In this document: one piece after another, positions 1 through 34,676 of the stretch
Position numbering within the stretch: position 1 is the stretch's first letter
Layout: each line of letters begins with the position of its first letter
NCBI GenBank assembly: GCA_020831845.1
Contig: JAFIFV010000096.1
Location: 1-34,676 of the forward strand
From: Ectothiorhodospiraceae bacterium
GTDB taxonomy: Bacteria; Pseudomonadota; Gammaproteobacteria; Nitrococcales; Aquisalimonadaceae
Direction: 5' to 3'
DNA: 34,676 nucleotides
Notes under the pieces: generated by a model
What the model was told of the DNA's origin: nothing
Databases searched by the model: none
What the model saw: only the letters and a program-made list of their open reading frames with translations
Translations under genes and position numbers: made by a program

Positions 1-538
1 CAATCTGGACATGAATACCAGATTCGTTGAGGGGGGACAAGGGGAATGAGACAAGGGAGTGGATGGGATATTGTGGGAAATTGGGAGTGATAGAGGGACG
101 GGAAGGCAGGCGTGGCGCGGGTTTGCGCTGGGGTGTGGATAGAATATCAGAGGGATGGCGCGAGGTGCGACGGTTTGAGACAGATGGTGCTGCAGGGGTG
201 TTTGCGCCGGATGAATTGCGACACGGCGGCCGGCGGTGCGGGCAGTGTTTAAGGCAGGTGTCGTAAAGGTCGGTTAAATGCCACTTAACGCGGGTTAACT
301 GGTCGCGCAAGGCGCGCAGCTCGGCGCGCACCTGGTGGTCGCTGGCGCGGCGGCCGTGGGCGCTGTCGTAGCCTTCCCGATCTTCCCGGCGCCGGCGCGG
401 GTGGTCGCCGATAATGACCGTGTTGTTGTCACCCGTTATGTCCCCCACCGTGATGTTAATGGCGCCGTCCTGGTCGCTCTTGCTGGGCTGCCCCTTATCC
501 AGTATCTCCCTGATTTCTTTGGTTACTTCGTCTGTCAT
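1..538 (-). CDS. Small phage protein of unknown function, reading frame open through the left phage end (partial)
   Basis: It starts at ATG 538 with GGAG about 11 nt upstream and lies 27 bp after the repressor stop, so it is probably co-transcribed with it. The first 100 or so residues look like a real protein: a charged N-terminus, a glycine/asparagine motif (GDITGDNNTVIIGD, residues 33-46), then a basic segment, an amphipathic stretch near residues 72-92 and a Cys/His-rich tail (CLKHCPHRRPPC). I do not recognise a named family. The frame meets no stop in L3, L2, L1 or host DNA and leaves the window open. The part after about residue 108 is Pro/Ser-rich and lies over the transposase sites, so the true functional end is unclear. 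Confidence 0.55.
   Translation of the reverse strand, partial: MTDEVTKEIREILDKGQPSKSDQDGAINITVGDITGDNNTVIIGDHPRRRREDREGYDSAHGRRASDHQVRAELRALRDQLTRVKWHLTDLYDTCLKHCPHRRPPCRNSSGANTPAAPSVSNRRTSRHPSDILSTPQRKPAPRLPSRPSITPNFPQYPIHSLVSFPLSPLNESGIHVQI
2..24. repeat. Inverted repeat in left host flank
   Basis: AATCTGG (2-8) and CCAGATT (18-24) form a 7-bp stem around a 9-nt loop. The right arm overlaps the target duplication. It could be a terminator or operator of a host gene to the left, but there is no T-run and too little flank to decide. Confidence 0.35.
23..27. repeat. Left copy of 5-bp target-site duplication (TTCGT)
   Basis: TTCGT directly precedes the TGAGG that begins the prophage. The same five bases follow the right terminus at 34477. 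Mu-family transposases create 5-bp duplications. A 5-bp match alone could be chance, but it coincides with TG/CA termini and with equal offsets of the transposase-site repeats. Confidence 0.75.
28..223. repeat. Left phage end (attL side) with three candidate transposase-binding sites L1-L3
   Basis: L3 (207-223) reads CCGGATGAATTGCGACA and matches 15 of 17 bases of the right-end sites read on the minus strand. L2 (166-182) matches 12 of 17. L1 (37-53) is weaker, 9 of 17, but keeps the TGxGACA core and begins exactly 10 bp from the terminus, as R1 does. The core spacings are 129 bp (L1-L2) and 41 bp (L2-L3), resembling the Mu left end, where L1 is far from a close L2-L3 pair. MuA-type binding is inferred from this layout. 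Confidence 0.7.
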
Positions 539-1613: not shown

Positions 1614-2096
1614 ATGACACGCAAGCGCTGGAAGCCAGTTCAGCCCGCCAGCATGCAGCACGCGATCCGGCTGTGCCTGGACTATGCGCTGCACAAACAC
1701 AACCGCAGCGTGGCCCGGGTGGCCGAGTTGATCGGCACCTCGGAGTGGTCGGTGTACAAGTGGATGAGCGAGGGCTCGATCCCGTCGGTGCGCATACGGC
1801 CTTTCGAGTTCGCCTGCGACGCCACGTTCATCACGCACTACATCGCCACCAGCGCCCAGAAGTTGGTGATCGACATCCCCGCCGGACGCGCCAGCAACCA
1901 GGACGAGCTGCTGGACCTGCAAAACGGAATGAATGAGGCCGTCGCCCTGCTAACCCGCTTTTATCGCGGCGAGGCGGAGGCGGCGGACGTTCTGCACGGG
2001 GTCACCTGTGCCATGCAGCAACTGGCCGGCCACCGGGAGAACGTGCGCAAGCATGACGCCCCGGAGCTGACCCTGTTCGGAGGAGATGACGAATGA
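1614..2096 (+). CDS. Early HTH-containing protein of unknown function
   Basis: I place the start at ATG 1614 because AGGGGG lies 5 nt upstream; an in-frame TTG at 1584 lacks this. The protein has 160 residues. A helix-turn-helix-like segment (SVARVAELIGTSEWSVYKWM, about residues 30-49) is followed by a region about binding partners or effector and a helical C-terminus with QDELLDLQNGMNEAVALL. It sits between ner and transposase A, and it overlaps the longer possible transposase frame. Mu-like phages commonly carry a small DNA-binding gene here. The exact family and target are not recognised; a CII-like regulator is one possibility. Confidence 0.7.
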   Translation: MTRKRWKPVQPASMQHAIRLCLDYALHKHNRSVARVAELIGTSEWSVYKWMSEGSIPSVRIRPFEFACDATFITHYIATSAQKLVIDIPAGRASNQDELLDLQNGMNEAVALLTRFYRGEAEAADVLHGVTCAMQQLAGHRENVRKHDAPELTLFGGDDE

Positions 2097-2232
2097 ACCA
2101 CAGCAACAGGCAAGCCAAGATCGGCAACCACCGGGCGACAGCGACCCGCGCATACCGCGAAGAAGCGCTCCGCCTGGGCGTGACGATAGTGAGGCCATCG
2201 CCGTACAGGTCACCGGCCAAGAGGGCGCGGTC

Positions 2233-4230
2233 ATGACGAACGGCTGGCACACCCTGCGAGACATTGCCGAGGCGCTGGAGGTCAGCCAGCAGGCGGTGCA
2301 AAAGCGCGCCAAGCGCGAGGGCTGGCCCTTCGAGCAGGCGACCGGTCGCGGCGGAAAGCGCCGATTGTACGCGCTGGAAAGCCTGCCGGTGGAAGTCCAG
2401 GCCGCCCTACTCAAGAGCGAAGCACCCAAGGCCGCCCCGAAGGTGACCCGCCCGACGGGCACCGCCAAGGTGGCCGACCGCGAAGCGCTGTGGGAAGCCT
2501 TCGAGCGCAAGCCGCAGCGCCTGAAAGACGAGGCGGCCCGGCGGCTGTCCGCCGTGCAGGGCGTGGAGCGCCTGGCCGAGAGCGGCAGCGGCCGCTCCAA
2601 GGCGGTGGAGGAAGTGGCCAAGGTGTACGGCGAGAGCCGGGCCACCCTGTACCGCTGGCTGAAGGCGGTGAAGGGCGTGGAGCCCACCGACTGGCTGGCC
2701 GCCCTGGCGCCGAGCTACGGGGGCCAGGCCGCCAAGGCCGAGTGCAGCCCCGAGGCCTGGGACTTCTTCAAGGCGCAGTACCTGCGCCCGGAGGCCCCCA
2801 GCATTGCCGCCTGCTACACCTGGACCCGCGAAGCGGCCAAGCAGCACGGCTGGGCGTGGCCCGCCCAGCGCACCATCAACCGCTGGGTGCAGGAGATTCC
2901 GGTGACCACCCGGGTGCTGATGCGCGAGGGCGAGGAGGCGCTGATGCGGCTGTACCCGGCCCAGCAGCGCACGGTGCGCGACCTGTACGCCTTGTTCTGG
3001 ATCAACGGCGACGGCTACCAGCACAACGTGTTCGTGCGCTTCCCGGACGGCACCATCGGGCGCCCCAAGACCTGGTTCTGGCAGGACGTGTACAGCCGCC
3101 GGGTGGTGGGCTTTCGCACCGACCGCACCGAGCATACCGACGTGATCCGCCTGGCCCTGGGCGACGTGCTGGAGCGCTACGGCATCCCCGAGCACGCCAC
3201 CATCGACAACACCCGCGCGGCCGCCAACAAGTGGATGACCGGCGGCGTGAAGAACCGCTACCGCTTCAAGGTGCGCGAGGAAGACCCCATGGGCCTGATG
3301 CCGCAGCTTGGCATCCAGGTGCACTGGACCAGCGTGTTCAAGGGCAAGGGTCACGGCCAGGCCAAGCCGGTGGAGCGGGCGTTCGGTGTCGGCGGCCTGG
3401 GCGAGTACGTGGACAAGCGCTACGCCCTGCGCGGTGCCTACACCGGCCCCAACCCCACCGCCAAGCCCGAGAACTACGGCGAGACGGCCGTCGACTTCGA
3501 GGTGTTCTGCCAGGAGCTGGCCGACGCCATCCGCCTGTGGAACGAGCAGGAGGGCCGGCGCACTGAGATCTGCGACGGGCGCCTGAGCTTTGCCCAGGCC
3601 TTCGAGCAGAGCTACCAGCGCAACGCCGACCGCATCCGCCGCCCCACCGCCGCCCAGCGGCGCATGTGGCTGCTGACGGCCGAGTCGGTGACGGTGCAGC
3701 GCGACAGCAGCATCGCCCTGCGGGTGGGCAGCGGGCCGAACGGCAAGAACCGCTACGGCAGCGATGCCTTGATTGATTACATCGGCCGCAAGGTGGTGGT
3801 GCGTTTCGACCCGGACAATCTGCAAAAGTCCGTACACGCCTATCAGACGGACGGCCGCTATATCGGCGAAATCAAGTGCATTCTCGCGGCCGGTTTCGGC
3901 GACTCCAGCGCCGCCCGCGAATGGGCCCGCAACCGCACTCAGCGCGCCAAGGCCGCCAAGGCCCAGGCCGAGGCACAAAAGCGCATGAGCGAGGTGGAGG
4001 CCATGGACTACCTGCCTACGCCCGAGCCGGAAGACGACACCCCGATACAGACCAGCGTCACCCGCGCCAGCTTTGGCGACGTCAAGCGGGCGGTGGGCAG
4101 CGACCTGGTGCCGGACGACACCGACGAGCAGAGCCCGGCCGACCGGCACGGCTTCGATGACCGGATTCTGCAATTGAGCAGCGCCTGGGTGCGCAACCAC
4201 CCGGACGCACCCAACCGGGAGGATGACTGA
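2233..4230 (+). CDS. A: MuA-like DDE transposase
   Basis: Catalyses strand transfer for integration and replicative transposition. From ATG 2233 the protein is 665 aa, almost the 663 aa of MuA, and begins with the MuA winged-helix domain (LRDIAEALEVSQQAVQKRAK...) ending in LESLPVEVQAALL, very close to MuA's NSLPVEAQAALL. The enhancer/end-binding helices follow, then the RNase-H core with D260 (INGD), D325 (TIDN) and E381 (KPVERAF); the D-D-E spacing of 65 and 56 fits MuA (67 and 56). The C-terminus is charged, as expected for the MuB/ClpX-contacting region. A longer in-frame start at 2086 would add 49 low-complexity residues and overlap the previous gene by 11 bp; I prefer 2233. Confidence 0.95.
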   Translation: MTNGWHTLRDIAEALEVSQQAVQKRAKREGWPFEQATGRGGKRRLYALESLPVEVQAALLKSEAPKAAPKVTRPTGTAKVADREALWEAFERKPQRLKDEAARRLSAVQGVERLAESGSGRSKAVEEVAKVYGESRATLYRWLKAVKGVEPTDWLAALAPSYGGQAAKAECSPEAWDFFKAQYLRPEAPSIAACYTWTREAAKQHGWAWPAQRTINRWVQEIPVTTRVLMREGEEALMRLYPAQQRTVRDLYALFWINGDGYQHNVFVRFPDGTIGRPKTWFWQDVYSRRVVGFRTDRTEHTDVIRLALGDVLERYGIPEHATIDNTRAAANKWMTGGVKNRYRFKVREEDPMGLMPQLGIQVHWTSVFKGKGHGQAKPVERAFGVGGLGEYVDKRYALRGAYTGPNPTAKPENYGETAVDFEVFCQELADAIRLWNEQEGRRTEICDGRLSFAQAFEQSYQRNADRIRRPTAAQRRMWLLTAESVTVQRDSSIALRVGSGPNGKNRYGSDALIDYIGRKVVVRFDPDNLQKSVHAYQTDGRYIGEIKCILAAGFGDSSAAREWARNRTQRAKAAKAQAEAQKRMSEVEAMDYLPTPEPEDDTPIQTSVTRASFGDVKRAVGSDLVPDDTDEQSPADRHGFDDRILQLSSAWVRNHPDAPNREDD

Positions 4231-4572: not shown

Positions 4573-5526
4573 ATGACCAACAATGTGACAGCCCTGAACC
4601 AGACCGAACAGACCCTGCAGGCCACCGTGCGAGCGGTGATGGACGCCGAGGGCCTGAGCCTGAGCGGCCTTAGCCAGTTGACCGGCGTGGGCAAGACCCG
4701 CCTGAGCCAATGGCTGAAGGACAAGTACCCGGGCGACAACGCGGCCATCGAGACCGATATCCGCCGCTGGCTGGAGAGCCGCGAGGCGGCCAGCGCCCTG
4801 GAGGGCCAGATGCCGGCGGCGCCGGATTGGGTCGAGACGCCCAGCGCCCGCGCGGTGCTGTCGGCCCTGTCCTTCGCCCAGATGGCCGAGGCGGTGTCGG
4901 TGGTCTACGGCGGTGCCGGGGTGGGCAAGACCACCACCATCCGCCGGTACCGCCAGCAGGCGCCCAACGTGTGGGTGGTGACTGCGACCCCGGCGGTGTC
5001 CGCGCCGGGCCCGATCCTGACCCGCATCGCGCAAGCGCTGGGCATCCGCACTACCGGCGCCGTGCACGTGATCGAGGCCAATATCATCGAGCGGGTGCGC
5101 GAGACCCGGGGGCTGCTGGTGATCGACGAGGCGCAGCACCTGACCCACCGCGCCCTGGACGCCATCCGCTCCATTCACGACGCCGCCGGCATCGGCCTGG
5201 CCCTGGTGGGCAACGAGATCGTCTACAGCCAACTGACCGGCGGCAGCCGCTCGGTGGGCTTTGCGCAACTGTTCAGCCGGGTAGCCAAGCGGGTGCGCCT
5301 GTCCCGCGCCAAGGACACCGACGTGACCGCGCTGCTGGCGGCCTGGGGCATCGAGGACAAGGAGGCGCGCCAGTTGTGCCTGGGCATCGGCCGCCGCCCC
5401 GGCGCTCTGCGCGGCCTGTCGCAGACCCTGCGCCTGGCGTCCATGTTCGCCCTGGAATCCGGCGCGGGACGCCCCGGCGTCGAGCACATCCGCGACGCCT
5501 GGCAGGACCTGGGGGGCGAGGCATGA
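4573..5526 (+). CDS. B: MuB-like AAA+ ATPase, transposition target-choice protein
   Basis: 317 residues (MuB 312). An N-terminal helix-turn-helix (SLSGLSQLTGVGKTRLSQWL, about 29-48) is followed by an AAA ATPase core: Walker A GGAGVGKTT (113-121), Walker B LLVIDEA (181-187), and a sensor-like LVGNE further on. MuB binds DNA as an ATP-dependent filament, captures target DNA and activates MuA. It is directly downstream of the A region, as in Mu. A clean Shine-Dalgarno is modest (GGAG 12-13 nt upstream of ATG). Confidence 0.95.
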   Translation: MTNNVTALNQTEQTLQATVRAVMDAEGLSLSGLSQLTGVGKTRLSQWLKDKYPGDNAAIETDIRRWLESREAASALEGQMPAAPDWVETPSARAVLSALSFAQMAEAVSVVYGGAGVGKTTTIRRYRQQAPNVWVVTATPAVSAPGPILTRIAQALGIRTTGAVHVIEANIIERVRETRGLLVIDEAQHLTHRALDAIRSIHDAAGIGLALVGNEIVYSQLTGGSRSVGFAQLFSRVAKRVRLSRAKDTDVTALLAAWGIEDKEARQLCLGIGRRPGALRGLSQTLRLASMFALESGAGRPGVEHIRDAWQDLGGEA

Positions 5527-11333: not shown

Positions 11334-11630
11334 ATGAGTTACGCCAAACTGATCACCGAGGACCGGCGCCTGATGGTGTTGCGGCTGCTGGCCGAATCCG
11401 AAGGCTACAGCGCCAATGAGTATCTGCTGGCCACGGCGCTGCCGGGGTTTGGCCATCACGCCAGCCACGACCGTGTGCGCACGGACCTGGACTGGCTCGC
11501 CGAGCAGGACCTGGTGCGGGTAGAGCGCCCGGGCGAGGTCTACGTGGCCACGCTGACCAGCCGAGGCGCCGATGTCGCCGCCGGCCGGGCCCGGGTGGCG
11601 GGCGTCAAGCGGCCACTGCCGGGGGAGTGA
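11334..11630 (+). CDS. Winged-helix phage protein (VpaChn25_0724-like, Mu gp26 position)
   Basis: 98 residues. The sequence reads as an ArsR-like winged helix: EDRRLMVLRLLAESEGYSANEYLLATAL, then RVRTDLDWLAEQDLVRVE and a short beta wing. This is a conserved small protein between the DUF2730 and terminase genes in Mu-like phages, named after VpaChn25_0724. Whether it regulates transcription or has a packaging role is unknown. The start ATG follows the previous stop immediately, after GGAGGTAGAG. Confidence 0.8.
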   Translation: MSYAKLITEDRRLMVLRLLAESEGYSANEYLLATALPGFGHHASHDRVRTDLDWLAEQDLVRVERPGEVYVATLTSRGADVAAGRARVAGVKRPLPGE

Positions 11631-11635
11631 TGCAC

Positions 11636-12379
11636 ATGCAGACACTGGAGATGAACGGCGCCCGACTGATTCATGGCGACGCCCTGGCCGCGCTGGATAC
11701 GCTGGCGCCGGAGACGGTGGACGCGCTGATCACCGATCCGCCCTATTCCAGCGGGGGGATGTTTCGCGGTGACCGCGTGCAGGATACCGGCGACAAGTAC
11801 CTGAACACCGGGGCGCGGCATTCGGCGCCGAGTTGGCCGGGCGACACCCGCGACCAGCGCGCCTATGGGCTGTGGTGCGAGCGCTGGCTGGGGGCCAGCT
11901 ATCGCGCCCTGAAATGGGGGGGGGTTGTGGCTGTGTTCTGTGACTGGCGGCAATTGCCCACCGTATCGGACGCCATCCAGGTGGCCGGCTTCGTGCTGCG
12001 CGGCATCCTGGTGTGGGACAAGACCGAGGGCACCCGCCCGGTAAAAGGCTGGCATCGCCAGCAATCGGAGTTCGTGCTGACCGCCAGCAAGGGGCCGCGC
12101 AACAAGGCCGGTGCGGATGCGCCCGTGTTGCCGCGGGTGGTGCGCTGCGCACCGCGCACCGGCGAGAAGCTGCACCAGGTGGGCAAGCCGGTGCCGCTGA
12201 TGCGCGAGGTGCTGCGCCTGGCGCCGGAAGGCGGCACGGTGTTGGACCCGTTCATGGGGTCGGCCGCCACCGGGGTGGCGGCGCTGGAGGACGGCCGGGA
12301 GTTTGTCGGGGTCGAGATCGACGCCCACTACTTCGGCGTGGCCGCCGAGCGCCTGCGCAAGCTCGGGGAGGTGGCCTGA
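11636..12379 (+). CDS. DNA N-methyltransferase (beta class)
   Basis: 247 residues from ATG 11636, with GGGGGAG 8 nt upstream; ATG 11630 is an alternative. Catalytic motif IV DPPY is at 34-37 and the AdoMet-binding motif I DPFMGSAATG at 204-213. The order IV, target recognition, I is that of beta-class adenine-N6 or cytosine-N4 methyltransferases. No restriction gene is adjacent, so it probably protects phage DNA or alters its regulation. The codons for W94-G95-G96 include nine G in a row (11916-11924), a potential phase-variation tract. The specific recognition site cannot be read. Confidence 0.9.
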   Translation: MQTLEMNGARLIHGDALAALDTLAPETVDALITDPPYSSGGMFRGDRVQDTGDKYLNTGARHSAPSWPGDTRDQRAYGLWCERWLGASYRALKWGGVVAVFCDWRQLPTVSDAIQVAGFVLRGILVWDKTEGTRPVKGWHRQQSEFVLTASKGPRNKAGADAPVLPRVVRCAPRTGEKLHQVGKPVPLMREVLRLAPEGGTVLDPFMGSAATGVAALEDGREFVGVEIDAHYFGVAAERLRKLGEVA

Positions 12380-30742: not shown

Positions 30743-31483
30743 ATGGCAGGCGATTTTTACACAGTGCTGACGGACGTGGGTAAGGCCAAGCTGGCCGATG
30801 CGCACGCGGACGGCCCGAAGGTGGAGCTGCAGACGATCCACGCCGGCACCGGCGGCGGCGAGAGCTTCTACGACAACTACGGCGAGGCCGAGCTGGGCGG
30901 GCTGGAGAATCTGGTCGACGAGGTCTGGTCCGACCAGATCAACCACCTGGCCGTCGATCCGGGCAATCCGAACTGGGTGGTGGTCGAGGGGGTGATCCCC
31001 ACCGATCAGGGCGGCTGGATGATCCGCGAGGTGGGCATCAAGGACGTGGATGGCGACCTGATCGCCGTGGGCCGCTTCCCGGAGACCTACAAGCCGGCGC
31101 TCACGGACGGTGCTGCCCAGGATCTGCTGATCCGCTCGATCATGGAGGTCAGCAACGCCGCTAACGTCACGCTGGAGATCGACCCGGCGGTGGTGCTGGC
31201 GTCTCGCAAATGGGTTCACGAGCAACTCCCGTACCTGCTGGAGGGTGAGCTGTCCTTCGGCGACTCCAGCGAGGGCTGGGCGCGGGATGACTTCGAGAGC
31301 TTGGCGTTCGACCCGGAGTTTCCCGACGACGAGTACCAGGTCACTTTCGAGCGCCCCGACTCGATCGAAGCCCAGCGGTTGGGCGACCTGGTGGTGTATG
31401 ACAAGGCCCCGAACGGCTGCAAGGTTCGGGCAACTGGCAGCGGCGGAGGAACTGTCCGATGGAAGGCAACACGTTGGCCGTAA
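30743..31483 (+). CDS. Tail fibre/collar N-terminal protein (P2 H-like start)
   Basis: 246 residues with AGGAG before the ATG. The first ~150 residues carry the tail-fibre anchor (FYTVLTDVGKAKLADAHADG, GGWMIREVGIKDVDGDLIAVGRFPETYKP, IRSIMEVSNAANVTLEID) of the DUF3751 type. It lacks the long repetitive shaft of P2 gpH and ends in a small beta-rich acidic domain. This protein would form the short stalk to which the DGR-variable protein may attach; the attachment is inference. Confidence 0.87.
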   Translation: MAGDFYTVLTDVGKAKLADAHADGPKVELQTIHAGTGGGESFYDNYGEAELGGLENLVDEVWSDQINHLAVDPGNPNWVVVEGVIPTDQGGWMIREVGIKDVDGDLIAVGRFPETYKPALTDGAAQDLLIRSIMEVSNAANVTLEIDPAVVLASRKWVHEQLPYLLEGELSFGDSSEGWARDDFESLAFDPEFPDDEYQVTFERPDSIEAQRLGDLVVYDKAPNGCKVRATGSGGGTVRWKATRWP

Positions 31484-31785
31484 GGCACCTGGGAGGGTCC
31501 GGCCCTTACTGGGAGTACGAGCTGGATGGCGCCACCCTGACGATCGACGGCGAGTCGGTTGACCTGGAGGCGCTGCAGAAGCGCGCCCGCGTTGCGCATG
31601 ACTTCATGTGCGAGGACGGGCGCTACAAGGCAACCGTAATCGTCCCGCCGGTGGCGTATGAGCTTCCGGAAGATGATGGCGACGACGAGGAGGAAGGCGA
31701 GTCCGAGCCCCCCGAGCGGCTGCCGCTCAAGGTGGAGGACGTGGAGCTGCGCCTCTACCCCCGAAAAGATAAGGAGACGGCATGA
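31459..31785 (+). CDS. Small acidic protein between the fibre and DGR target, unknown function
   Basis: 108 residues, overlapping the fibre gene by 25 bp and the target gene by 4 bp. A strand-rich first half (YWEYELDGATLTIDGESVDL) is followed by a helix (EALQKRARVAHDFMCEDG) and a strongly acidic linker (EDDGDDEEEGESEPPE). I do not recognise it. Being tightly coupled to the variable tail protein, it could be an assembly chaperone or an adaptor joining the variable protein to the stalk. Confidence 0.75.
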   Translation: MEGNTLAVRHLGGSGPYWEYELDGATLTIDGESVDLEALQKRARVAHDFMCEDGRYKATVIVPPVAYELPEDDGDDEEEGESEPPERLPLKVEDVELRLYPRKDKETA

Positions 31786-32720
31786 GCAGGATGATTATTT
31801 CGACGCCGGATGCGCTCCGGCAGAGCGTTGAAGCCGCGACCGGCGGGCGCATGACGGTGCTGTATGACGACCACGGCCTGCCCAACTATATGTACGTGAT
31901 CCCGCGCTTTCGCTATGAGGACCTGGGATTCGATAGCGAGCTGGGCAGCGGTGTGGTGACGGCGTTCCTGGTTGACGGCCAACAGAAGGACGAGATCTTC
32001 ATCGGGGCCTATCAGGCCAGCCGGGTGGGCGATGTCGCCTGCTCGCTGCCCGGACGCGAAGTCTGGCGCTCGATCAACTGGGACGACTCGCTGGCCGCGT
32101 GCACCACCAAGGGTGAGGGCTGGCACATGATGACCGTGCACGAGTGGGCGGCGGTGGCCTTGTTCTGCAAAGCAAACGGCTATGAACCCACGGGCAACAC
32201 CGACTACGGGCGGCATCACGATAACCACCACGAGTTCGGCCGCCGGTCGGACGGTGGCGATCTTGGCGACTCTAGCGGTGTCGGGAACATCTTTGCGGGC
32301 ACAGGGCCGGATGCCTGGCGGCACGATGGCAGCCCTACGGGCATTGCAGACCTGGTCGGTAATGTCTGGGAATGGCTGTGGGGTGCCAAACTGCAGGATG
32401 GCCGCATCTACGCCGTCGAGGACAACGACACAAGCGTGGACGAGAGCAGCTGGCAGGACACCGGCGCGGACCTCACGGATGCGAACCCGTGGACCTCCAG
32501 CGACGTTACGGGCACCCAGCTGACGGACCGCATCCTGTTCACCTATCCGGGTATTGACCTGGGGGGCCGGCTGTACGTGAACGATGAGGGCGAGCGCTTC
32601 CCGCGTCGTGGTGGCAGCCGGGGCAATGGGTCGGACGCCGGCTTGGCCGCGCTGAGCTTGAACGATTCGCGGTCGCTCACGTACACGCACACGGGCTTCC
32701 GGCCGGCTTTTGTCATCTGA
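31782..32720 (+). CDS. DGR target: variable tail-tip protein with FGE-sulfatase/C-type lectin fold
   Basis: 312 residues. The C-terminal part has the FGE-type lectin fold used by many DGR variable proteins: the WAAVALFCKANGYEP segment, GNVWEW at 193-198, and the end RRGGSRGNGS...GLAALSLNDSRS...GFRPAFVI. The final 38 residues (272-309) are the variable repeat. Seven codons differ from the template copy: residues 281 (G), 285 (D), 292 (S), 295 (D), 299 (L), 301 (Y) and 303 (H), each Asn in the template. N282 and N294 are unchanged. The variable residues would lie on the ligand-binding surface, so this is the probable receptor-binding protein. It immediately follows the tail-fibre block. Confidence 0.95.
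   Translation: MSRMIISTPDALRQSVEAATGGRMTVLYDDHGLPNYMYVIPRFRYEDLGFDSELGSGVVTAFLVDGQQKDEIFIGAYQASRVGDVACSLPGREVWRSINWDDSLAACTTKGEGWHMMTVHEWAAVALFCKANGYEPTGNTDYGRHHDNHHEFGRRSDGGDLGDSSGVGNIFAGTGPDAWRHDGSPTGIADLVGNVWEWLWGAKLQDGRIYAVEDNDTSVDESSWQDTGADLTDANPWTSSDVTGTQLTDRILFTYPGIDLGGRLYVNDEGERFPRRGGSRGNGSDAGLAALSLNDSRSLTYTHTGFRPAFVI
32594..32708 (+). repeat. DGR variable repeat (VR)
   Basis: 115 bp at the 3' end of the target gene, aligned without gaps to the TR 536 bp downstream. Nine differences, all at template adenines: A to G at 32622, 32623, 32634, 32656 and 32664; A to C at 32676 and 32688; A to T at 32677 and 32682. None of the 93 non-adenine positions differs. The match extends to 32712 with one T/C difference at 32709. 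Confidence 0.97.
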
Positions 32721-32742
32721 GTTCTGCAGCCTGTCATCTGCT

Positions 32743-32769
32743 GGGGTGCGCGGTAGCGCACCCCTTTTT
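32743..32769 (+). terminator. Hairpin plus T-run after VR: terminator and candidate DGR target-recognition element
   Basis: GGGGTGCGC (32743-32751) pairs perfectly with GCGCACCCC (32756-32764) around the 4-nt loop GGTA, followed by TTTTT (32765-32769). This is a strong intrinsic terminator. In the BPP-1 DGR a hairpin with a 4-nt loop just behind VR is needed for efficient retrohoming, so this may do both jobs. A direct repeat TGTCATCTG (32711-32719 and 32732-32740) lies between VR and the hairpin. Confidence 0.8.
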
Positions 32770-32786
32770 AATGACCTGCGAGCGCC

Positions 32787-33122
32787 ATGCAAGAACTGAA
32801 AATCGCCCAGAAAGTCGAGGAAATGATCCAGTACGGCTACGTGGCCGTGCGGCACTTCCCCAAGTCAGAGCGTCACGTGCTGTCGCAGGAGTTGCGGCTG
32901 TCGATGTGGCGGCTGCTGCGCTTGGTGATCATCTGCTCCAAGCGCTACCACAAAAAGACGACCCTCCAGGAGTTGGACGCGGAGCTGGAGCTGTTGCGCC
33001 GCGAGATCCGCCTAGCCAAGGATCTGGGTGTGCTGCCCTTCAAGCAGTACGAGGTTTGGGCGCGCCACCTGGACGAGGTGGGCCGCATGGTCGGCGGGTG
33101 GCTGAAGAAGGTAAGGGGCTAG
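32787..33122 (+). CDS. avd: DGR accessory variability determinant (Avd-like)
   Basis: 111 residues, mostly helical and basic, in the four-helix-bundle Avd/23S-intervening-sequence family: IAQKVEEMIQYGYVAVRHFPKSERHVLSQELRLSMW, then LLRLVIICSKRYHKKTTLQELDAELELLRREIRLA and WARHLDEVGRMVGGWLKK. Avd forms a pentamer that binds the reverse transcriptase and the template RNA and is needed for cDNA synthesis. It lies 18 bp behind the terminator-like hairpin and 7 bp before the TR. Confidence 0.93.
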   Translation: MQELKIAQKVEEMIQYGYVAVRHFPKSERHVLSQELRLSMWRLLRLVIICSKRYHKKTTLQELDAELELLRREIRLAKDLGVLPFKQYEVWARHLDEVGRMVGGWLKKVRG

Positions 33123-33129
33123 GTGCTGT

Positions 33130-33244
33130 GCGCTTCCCGCGTCGTGGTGGCAGCCGGAACAATGGGTCGAACGCCGGCTTGGCCGCGCTGAACTTGAACA
33201 ATTCGCGGTCGAACACGAACACGAACACGGGCTTCCGGCCGGCT
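33130..33244 (+). repeat. DGR template repeat (TR)
   Basis: 115 bp carrying 22 adenines, most in AAC/AAT codons when read in the VR frame (nine Asn codons). The matching positions in VR have been replaced at nine adenines. AAY codons allow many amino-acid exchanges but never a stop when only A changes. It lies 7 bp behind the avd stop and would be transcribed with avd and the RT as template RNA. Confidence 0.97.
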
Positions 33245-33399
33245 CTTGAGGAACGCCAGAAGCGGCGGGGCTAAGGTGCCGCCGCCAGTGCGCCTTCAAA
33301 AGGGCGCCTAGTCCTCGGCCAAGCGCCGAAAAATGAACAGGCGCCGGTAGTGTGGTAGGCAATCGAAGCTCTTCCGGCGCCGTCTTTCAAAGGGAACCC
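33245..33399 (+). ncRNA. Spacer of the DGR template RNA between TR and RT
   Basis: 155 bp without a gene. Two hairpins are visible: GCGCC (33290-33294) with GGCGC (33303-33307), and GGCGCCGG (33340-33347) with CCGGCGCC (33374-33381). In the BPP-1 system the region downstream of TR in the template RNA is bound by RT-Avd and primes cDNA synthesis, so structure here is expected. An AAAGGG ribosome-binding site for the RT lies at 33389-33394. Confidence 0.55.
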
Positions 33400-34422
33400 A
33401 TGAAGACGTACAAGAACCTGTTCCAGGAGGTTTACCAGTTTGACCGGCTGCACTGGGCGTACACGCAAGCCCGGCGCGGCAAGCGGGATCGGGCCGAGGT
33501 GTTGCGCTTCGAGCAGAACCTGGAGGGCGAGCTGATCCAGCTGCAAAACGAGTTGATCTGGGGCATGTACACGACCAGCCCCTACCGGGTGTTCTGGGTC
33601 TACGAGCCCAAGAAGCGCACCGTGGCCGCGCTGCCATTTCGCGACCGCGTGGTGCAGCACAGCCTGGCGAGCGTGATGGAGCCGATCTGGGAGCCGCGCT
33701 TCATCCATCACAGCTACGCCTGTCGCCCAGGGCGTGGCATGCACGCCGGTGCGGACCAGGCTCAGCAGTGGCTGCGCGAGGTCAAGCGCGAGCATGGCCG
33801 GGTATACGTCCTGAAGGCGGACATCGCCAAGTACTTCCCGTCGATCGACCACCAGGTGTTGCTGGGCATGCTGAGCGAGCGGATCGCATGTGATCGCACA
33901 ATGGGGTTGGCCGCCGATATCGTGGACTCATGGCACCCAGGGCTGCCGATCGGCAACCTGACCAGTCAGTTGTGGGCGAACGTCTACTTGCACGAGCTGG
34001 ATAGCTTCGTAAAGCAGCAGCTGGGAGTCCGGCGCTATATCAGGTACATGGATGACTGGCTGATCGTCCACCACGACAAGGCGCACCTGCACGGCCTGCG
34101 CCGCGTGCTGGAGGAGTGGCTATGGGATCGGTTACGGCTGCGCCTGAACAACAAGACCCAGATATTTCCGGTGGCAGCCCGGCGAGGCCGCGCCCTGGAC
34201 TTCCTGGGCTACCGGATGTGGTGCACCCACCGCCGCTTGCGGGGCGACTCTGTGAAGCGCATGGAGCGCCGGTTAAAGGATCTTCAACAAGGGTATAGCG
34301 AGGGGTTAATCGAGCTGTCAGACGTCCGGCAGAGGTTGGCCAGCTGGGTCGGTCACGCAAGTCACGCGGACTCTTTCAGGATACGGCAGAAGTTATTCTC
34401 CGCTGCGTCATTCCGGCGCTAA
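33400..34422 (+). CDS. DGR reverse transcriptase
   Basis: 340 residues from ATG 33400, chosen for AAAGGG 5-6 nt upstream; an earlier in-frame start at 33352 lies in the RNA spacer. Motif A has D141 (ADIAKYFPSID), and motif C is YMDD (216-219). The DGR-specific motif 4 is IGNLTSQ (184-190), against QGxxxSP in group II intron and retron enzymes. The N-terminal part (FQEVYQFDRLHWAYTQARRGKRDR) and the late LDFLGYRM are typical of the family. It copies the TR RNA with errors opposite adenines and delivers the cDNA to VR. Confidence 0.97.
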   Translation: MKTYKNLFQEVYQFDRLHWAYTQARRGKRDRAEVLRFEQNLEGELIQLQNELIWGMYTTSPYRVFWVYEPKKRTVAALPFRDRVVQHSLASVMEPIWEPRFIHHSYACRPGRGMHAGADQAQQWLREVKREHGRVYVLKADIAKYFPSIDHQVLLGMLSERIACDRTMGLAADIVDSWHPGLPIGNLTSQLWANVYLHELDSFVKQQLGVRRYIRYMDDWLIVHHDKAHLHGLRRVLEEWLWDRLRLRLNNKTQIFPVAARRGRALDFLGYRMWCTHRRLRGDSVKRMERRLKDLQQGYSEGLIELSDVRQRLASWVGHASHADSFRIRQKLFSAASFRR

Positions 34423-34428
34423 TTGCTG

Positions 34429-34476
34429 TGTCGCAAACCATCCGGCAGACTGTCGCAAACCATCCGGCGCGCTACA
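34429..34476. repeat. Right phage end with two candidate transposase-binding sites R2 and R1
   Basis: The 17-base word TGTCGCAAACCATCCGG occurs twice, at 34429-34445 (R2) and 34451-34467 (R1), exactly 22 bp apart. In Mu, R1 and R2 are likewise adjacent with about one helical-repeat multiple between them. The copies are inverted relative to the left-end sites. A possible degraded third site lies around 34404-34417 (TGCGTCATTCCGGC). The element ends with CA at 34476. Confidence 0.78.
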
Positions 34477-34481
34477 TTCGT
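34477..34481. repeat. Right copy of 5-bp target-site duplication (TTCGT)
   Basis: TTCGT directly follows ...GCTACA, the proposed right end of the prophage. Removing 28-34481 rejoins host sequence as ...ACCAGATTCGT followed by CGCAACACGAGG, which leads into a host gene with its own ribosome-binding site. Confidence 0.75.
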
Positions 34482-34503
34482 CGCAACACGAGGTCAATCC
34501 GCC

Positions 34504-34676
34504 ATGTCGCGCAGCGGACAGACCCCACAGGGGACGACCCACACCCCGGATCCGGCCGCCCCAGCGCCCGGCCAGAGCCTGGACGAGATGCTACGCAGCT
34601 CGATCTGGGCACGGGACCTGGATCCGGTCGCCTTCTACAACGTCCGCGCCCGGATCACCGAGCGTAGCGTGGGCCC
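34504..34676 (+). CDS. Host gene start, unidentified (partial)
   Basis: Starts at ATG 34504 with CGAGG about 10 nt upstream and runs off the window. The 57 visible residues open with a Pro/Thr-rich, probably flexible stretch (TPQGTTHTPDPAAPAPG), then LDEMLRSSIWARDLDPVAF, which looks like a helical start. Family not recognised. The prophage is inserted 23-27 bp upstream of it, probably in or near its promoter, so its expression may be altered. Confidence 0.6.
   Translation, partial: MSRSGQTPQGTTHTPDPAAPAPGQSLDEMLRSSIWARDLDPVAFYNVRARITERSVG

Follow-up and report, generated by a model that had tools for sequence, protein, structure and literature searches.

A diversity-generating retroelement at the right end of a Mu-like prophage, with a predicted tail protein as its target and an RT-14 spacer RNA

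The DNA analysed here (the window) is an entire contig of 34,676 nucleotides, C42, from an Ectothiorhodospiraceae bacterium whose genome assembly (GCA_020831845.1, designated G000) comprises 158 contigs and is 89% complete. The last 2.7 kb of a Mu-like prophage in this contig is occupied by a diversity-generating retroelement (DGR), which very probably rewrites the C-terminal end of its target protein through copying of a template RNA that is error-prone at adenines. The parts lie on the forward strand in the following order: the target gene (31782–32720), whose C-terminal codons contain the variable repeat (VR, 32594–32708); a hairpin (32743–32764); the accessory variability determinant, avd (32787–33122); the template repeat (TR, 33130–33244); a spacer RNA (33243–33381); and the reverse transcriptase (RT) gene (33400–34422). 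A preliminary description, made from the sequence alone, had given the order target, hairpin, avd, TR, RT, which the coordinates reproduce, and had proposed adenine-directed mutagenic retrohoming, which is well supported by the anatomy of the element and by its relatives.

VR and TR align without gaps over 115 nt and differ at nine positions, all of them adenines in TR (9 of 22 A and 0 of 93 other bases), where VR has G at five, C at two and T at two; these figures, recomputed, are identical to those of the preliminary description. The probability that nine random differences would all fall on the 22 adenines is 7e-8. One script was applied to 101 RT loci, made up of 80 from genomes, 14 from IMG/VR, 5 named phage records, BPP-1 and the window; its repeat-pair detector found a pair in 84 when A was set as the mutable base, in 5 when this was G, and in 1 each for C and T. 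Removal of repeated TRs, of pairs with fewer than 5 A or more than 3 non-A differences and of those at least 150 nt long left 80 distinct pairs, in which 1001 of 2031 adenines differ versus 42 of 7109 other bases; since this filter (at most 3 non-A differences per pair) favours a low non-A count, the fair comparison is the detector control with the other bases and not the raw ratio. Differences at non-adenine positions in the VRs of relatives, which had been named in advance as evidence that would count against the proposal, are thus rare in the filtered pairs. Searches of G000 gave neither another copy of TR or VR nor a second RT of the same kind.

The target gene encodes a protein of 312 residues that matches phrog_2889 and has no Pfam match at E 0.001. 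Its profile matches the Thermus aquaticus variable protein TaqVP (5vf4) over nearly the full length with E 4.1e-97, the sole other PDB sequence up to E 0.01 being EgtB-IV (0.0007). The AlphaFold model (pLDDT 87.7) superimposes on three 5vf4 chains with TM scores of 0.87–0.89 of the query, and PvdO and BPP-1 Mtd are weaker matches. From these comparisons, the target is predicted to be a DGR variable protein with the C-type lectin fold of the FGE subtype and with VR at its C terminus, the VR core ending at about residue 309. The nine residues templated by AAY codons all lie between 281 and 303; each AAC- or AAT-templated codon can encode 15 residues and never a stop, and together with four further variable codons they allow ∼1e13 possible proteins. 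In an alignment of 65 rows (the window plus 64 homologues, selected chiefly for similar length out of the 120 listed), the mean entropy is 3.04 bits at the nine AAY-templated residues, 0.66 at other VR residues and 1.03 at residues 6–272, and some residues outside VR (e.g. 236 and 259) are about equally variable as the templated ones. The high entropy of the templated residues is strong evidence that the target family is diversified by the DGR mechanism.

The avd product matches bAvd (PF22296, E 9.7e-33) over positions 3–107 of 107 and also phrog_3206, and the RT, of 340 residues and without inner stops, matches phrog_1423 (E 6.8e-140) and PF00078. The best of the 34 PDB sequences matched by the RT profile (E 3.8e-96) is 8ub7, which we take to be the RT-Avd-RNA complex of BPP-1. 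In an alignment of 12 RTs that includes that of the window, YMDD is invariant; in the IGNLTSQ motif, of the type that marks DGR RTs, the G, L, T, S and Q are invariant, the N is nearly so and the I is variable. Both motifs had been reported in the preliminary description, and the broken catalytic residues that it had listed as adverse evidence were not seen. Profile and motif matches place the RT in the DGR clade.

Downstream of VR, the GC-rich hairpin GGGGTGCGC-GGTA-GCGCACCCC has a perfect 9-bp stem and is followed by T5. It fits the rule stated for phage DGR hairpins in a passage of PMC3240598 (a stem of 7–10 bp, a GRNA loop and a distance of 4–34 nt), and its start, 34 nt past the end of the VR core, is at the top of the published range; the stem with its T5 also scores as a terminator. 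With a script that accepts a perfect stem of at least 7 bp and a GRNA loop no more than 70 nt away, such hairpins were found after VR in 31 of the 80 pairs, the window's included, and after TR in 0 of 80.

The spacer between TR and RT matches the Rfam family RT-14 (RF02921) with 62.9 bits (gathering cut-off 48.1), the match beginning within the final bases of TR; RT-15 and RT-3 give weaker matches that stay under their cut-offs. An alignment of 15 spacers, the window's included, gives 37 predicted base pairs, of which 29 have changes on both sides. Cells with two-sided changes number 107 as compared with 36.9 in shuffles, and pairing falls from 88% to 46–50% when the partner is slid by one column; the structure was derived from the same 15 sequences as the covariation count, which favours it. 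It is on covariation, and not on folding energy, that the structure is supported. A covariance model built from the 15 spacers (R1) was run on 92 sources and gave matches with E <0.01 in 43 of the 77 outside the training set, one of which (L193) appears to repeat another (L184). Checking covered 42 non-training matches, namely those of 40 sources (without L186, L190 and L193) and second matches in two Pigmentiphaga loci (L108 and L109). In 35 of them the start is no more than 20 nt from the 3' end of a TR, and the other seven comprise three at loci where no TR was found, the two second Pigmentiphaga spacers and two that lie 73–80 nt off.

RF02921 itself was searched in 35 whole genomes selected for holding a DGR-type RT and gave 22 matches in 21 of them, over the cut-off in 18 genomes, with no match in the other 14, which include both Pigmentiphaga genomes. 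All 22 matches lie just upstream of an RT found by the DGR RT profile, and, in the short loci examined, a TR/VR pair is near 20 of them; of the remaining two, L134 has its pair further off and at L115 none was found. One match, in a locus outside the earlier set (G557:C169, locus L248), also proved to be a DGR. Because the genomes were chosen for their DGR RT, the 22 of 22 is a measure of specificity within such genomes and not across bacteria. In these genomes, RT-14 is thus the domain of the DGR template RNA that forms the spacer. Among the papers listed by searches of one open-access library, none ties RT-14 to DGRs, and we do not claim the link as unpublished; the RT-x families probably stem from Weinberg 2017. 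Another Rfam family, RT-2 (RF03077), matches just 3' of TR at two loci where VR is downstream of the RT (L011, 3395–3557, and L012, 4507–4669), which suggests that further RT-x families are DGR spacers.

For DGRs of the BPP-1 type, PMC12875486 gives the spacer two tasks, the loading of RT and Avd and the priming of cDNA synthesis that enters TR at its 3' edge. By analogy, the spacer of the avd-TR-RT transcript, the RT-14 RNA, would fold, load RT and Avd and prime cDNA into the TR edge; the RT would misread template adenines while copying TR; and the cDNA would replace VR at a site marked by the downstream hairpin, so that the target would vary at the nine AAY-templated and the four further codons. 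Loading, priming and homing, like a tail position of the target and a change of receptor, are carried over from BPP-1 and its relatives.

Several observations weigh against this reading. (i) Extending the repeat to 119 nt (32594–32712 and 33130–33248) brings in a tenth difference, C in TR (33245) and T in VR (32709), at the 3' edge of the homology, and the chance value becomes 4.6e-7; this is the single C/T difference found in the comparison of IMH with IMH*. (ii) Thirteen of the 22 template adenines are the same in VR. (iii) By the rule of the script, a perfect GRNA hairpin is missing in 49 of the 80 pairs. (iv) The folding energy of the spacer is unexceptional (z −1.56, 17 of 200 shuffles being as low). 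(v) R1 did not find the spacer of BPP-1 (L185), which has its own family, RF03022 Phage_DGR. (vi) The target, which matches a family of unknown function (phrog_2889), has no assigned virion position. (vii) Activity of the DGR at the present day is a prediction from sequence. The last point leaves some room for an element that is no longer active, in which VR records a past diversification, is now a fixed allele and the machinery is drifting. A single genome was available and it yielded one VR alone, as such an element would have it, but the RT is open with its motifs intact, Avd is of full length, the spacer RNA scores above its gathering cut-off and the hairpin is perfect over 9 bp, and we consider loss of activity unlikely. 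It is barely conceivable that the repeats arose by plain duplication of part of the target gene and then diverged, by chance or under selection, with no template mechanism: a direct repeat of 115 bp could come from duplication, but all nine core differences fall on A, RT, Avd and spacer RNA are present, and 84 of 101 RT loci have the same pattern.

The role of the diversified protein is a separate matter, and here the alternative is a function other than receptor binding, either enzyme-like (FGE/SUMF1) or some other surface or secreted function. Of the 120 homologues listed, many match PF03781 and several bear the enzyme names SUMF1, EgtB or PvdO, and the authors of the YPCBV-1 report (PMC9769972) discuss their protein as an auxiliary metabolic gene. 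Against this, the nearest solved structure is that of a DGR variable protein, TaqVP, with BPP-1 Mtd among the fold matches that come after it, and the target gene comes after baseplate and tail fibre genes, a place in which the DGR target of phage ACA1, also after a fibre gene, is annotated as antireceptor. An enzyme-like or other role is improbable, and the target is likely a tail-borne protein, predicted by analogy to bind the host; its diversification would then change receptor use as in BPP-1 and its relatives.

The carrier is an integrated Mu-like prophage, presumed to transpose replicatively. It spans positions 28–34476 (34,449 bp, TGAGGGG...CGCGCTACA), as judged from a 5-bp target-site duplication, TTCGT, at 23–27 and 34477–34481, and from a right-terminal motif common to relatives. 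Two exact copies of an 18-mer lie near the right end (34429–34446 and 34451–34468, the second 22 nt beyond the first, forward strand) and a third, with two mismatches and in inverted orientation, near the left (206–223, reverse strand), as compared with 0.06 such sites expected in the window; the layout resembles that of MuA-binding sites. A left end at the TG of position 199, which has no target duplication, was rejected in favour of 28 on the left ends of relatives and the TTCGT match, so that site 206–223 is internal to the prophage; positions 1–198 are mostly phage. No empty insertion site was seen in G000, where searches with 34477–34676 and 1–198 matched only the window itself. The insertion point lies 27 nt before the ATG of a frame (34504–34676) that is open through the contig end.

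The gene content agrees with the Mu-like assignment and right-end placement made in the preliminary description. A MuA-type transposase (2086–4230, forward strand; PF02914 with E 9e-102, PF09039, PF09299, PF02316; phrog_310) and a MuB-type transposition protein (4573–5526, forward strand; PF09077 with E 4.5e-25; phrog_296) are accompanied by Mu head proteins, namely portal, F protein, protease and the gpT major head subunit (PF06074, PF04233, PF10123 and PF10124), and by a contractile sheath gene. The baseplate genes are of P2 type: Baseplate_J and Tail_P2_I match above the Pfam cut-offs and a GPD-like protein below its cut-off, and all three match tail PHROGs. The last genes are, in order, a tail-collar fibre protein of the N-terminal type (30743–31483, forward strand; PF12571, E 3.4e-53), a small open reading frame (ORF) without a Pfam match (31459–31785, forward strand; phrog_8734 of unknown function, E 1.8e-5), the DGR target, avd and RT, and the right terminus is 54 nt past the RT stop.

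The right-end position of the DGR recurs in relatives. Four spellings of the right-terminal motif were sought in 17 related loci, and 10 of these have CGCGCTACA or a variant no more than 500 nt past the RT: L105 (Vibrio injensis), L107 (Idiomarina), L186–L190, L192, L193 and phage YPCBV-1 (L021). The spelling is CGCGTTACA in L189, L192 and L193, and the sequences of L189 and L192 appear identical. The motif was not seen within this distance in L006, L018, L106, L108, L109, L194 and L195, and it is so short that unrelated places match too. From the other direction, the first 50 of the 80 best transposase relatives in IMG/VR were surveyed, many of them fragments that may lack the right end; a DGR RT is present in six, at ∼0.1–1.1 kb from a contig end in five (G040, G015, G005, G009 and G014) and ∼12 kb in in G025. 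When 46 long records were searched, all but one of them taken from the transposase list, a DGR RT turned up in these six and in the record of L006, which was chosen by its RT. The L006 record (G525, 36,078 bp) has its DGR RT ending 24 nt from the right end of the record and gives no PF02914 match; this phage may therefore use another type of transposase. Among 59 relatives of G000, itself included, RT-profile matches with E <1e-100 occur in four others, all of the same order, and the profile has no match in the two genomes of the same genus.

Phage Mu carries the invertible G segment of its tail fibre at this right-end position. The right terminus may thus be a recurring slot for tail-tip diversifiers, two unrelated host-range switches (the DGR here, the G segment in Mu) sharing one position, with the DGR driven by an RNA, named by Rfam as no more than "RT", that would be the loading and priming domain of the template; we give this combined proposal about an even chance.

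The preliminary description regarded the coupling of DGRs to transposing phages as less documented, and this does not hold, since the coupling is already in print for three phages: Mushu (PMC5883640) and hankyphage (PMC6199706), which combine a Mu-type transposase with a DGR, and the Mu-like phage YPCBV-1 (PMC9769972). The reference list of PMC5883640 also contains a paper of 2013 by Toussaint with Mu-like phages of Firmicutes and DGRs in its title. The annotated records of BalMu-1 and of Vibrio phage ZX4290 likewise combine a Mu transposase with a DGR; a search of one open-access library found nothing on BalMu-1. The window therefore holds a well-formed but ordinary example of a Mu-like phage DGR, one that joins transposition and targeted hypermutation in a compact, precisely bounded form; its additions are prophage ends fixed exactly, a right-end DGR position seen repeatedly in relatives, and a link between RT-14 and DGR spacers.

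The closest comparison is Chromohalobacter phage YPCBV-1 (OP380511), a Mu-like phage with MuA and the right-terminal CGCGCTACA in which a SUMF1-type target, avd, TR and RT are the last genes, the RT ending at 35938 of 36002; its RT is ∼41% identical to that of the window, and its spacer is a weak match to R1 (30.5 bits). ZX4290 also carries MuA, and its RT is the last gene but one. Bacillus phage BalMu-1 has a transposase and a SUMF1-type target, avd and RT near the right end but differs in having holin and endolysin genes after the RT. Mushu and hankyphage have both been shown to make virions (PMC5883640, PMC6199706, PMC12135933), and the DGR of hankyphage has been measured as active in cultures and virions (PMC12135933); unlike the window, they are described in these sources from gut hosts. 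BPP-1 shares the order target, avd, TR, rt, a GRNA-loop hairpin after VR, differences at 17 of 23 A and 0 other bases, and an RT 38% identical to that of the window; in contrast, its spacer matches RF03022 at the gathering threshold, not RT-14, and the fold of Mtd resembles that of the window's target only distantly. TaqVP, a full-length homologue of the target in sequence and fold, belongs to a thermophile prophage and, according to a passage of PMC6328139, has a VR of 40 residues. ACA1 (Peduoviridae) and VP58.5 (Vhmlvirus) also have target, avd, TR and RT in that order after tail fibre genes, but in both the cassette has tail genes after it instead of closing the genome of a transposable phage.

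Some loci depart from the simple arrangement. L115 (Stutzerimonas stutzeri), L110 and L127 have a DGR-type RT and a spacer RNA and no TR/VR pair within 6 kb of the RT; their targets may be remote, the repeats may have been lost or, for L110 and L127, too little of the contig is available. In Pigmentiphaga humi (L109, 7829–12792, and L225), with the ORFs read by eye, two DGR engines are in tandem, avd1-TR1-RT1 followed by avd2-TR2-spacer-RT2, and in Pigmentiphaga sp. NML080357 (L108) a second spacer-RNA match, at 11542–11688, likewise lies downstream of RT1 and is preceded by a TR-like stretch. A spacer covariance search can lead to a DGR template even when its VR is remote, as happened with R1 in P. 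humi, a genome in which RF02921 itself has no match. The VR that corresponds to TR2 there is ∼56 kb away in another ORF (351 residues in open frame), and the two repeats differ at 15 of 97 bases, all 15 at template adenines, of which there are 19.

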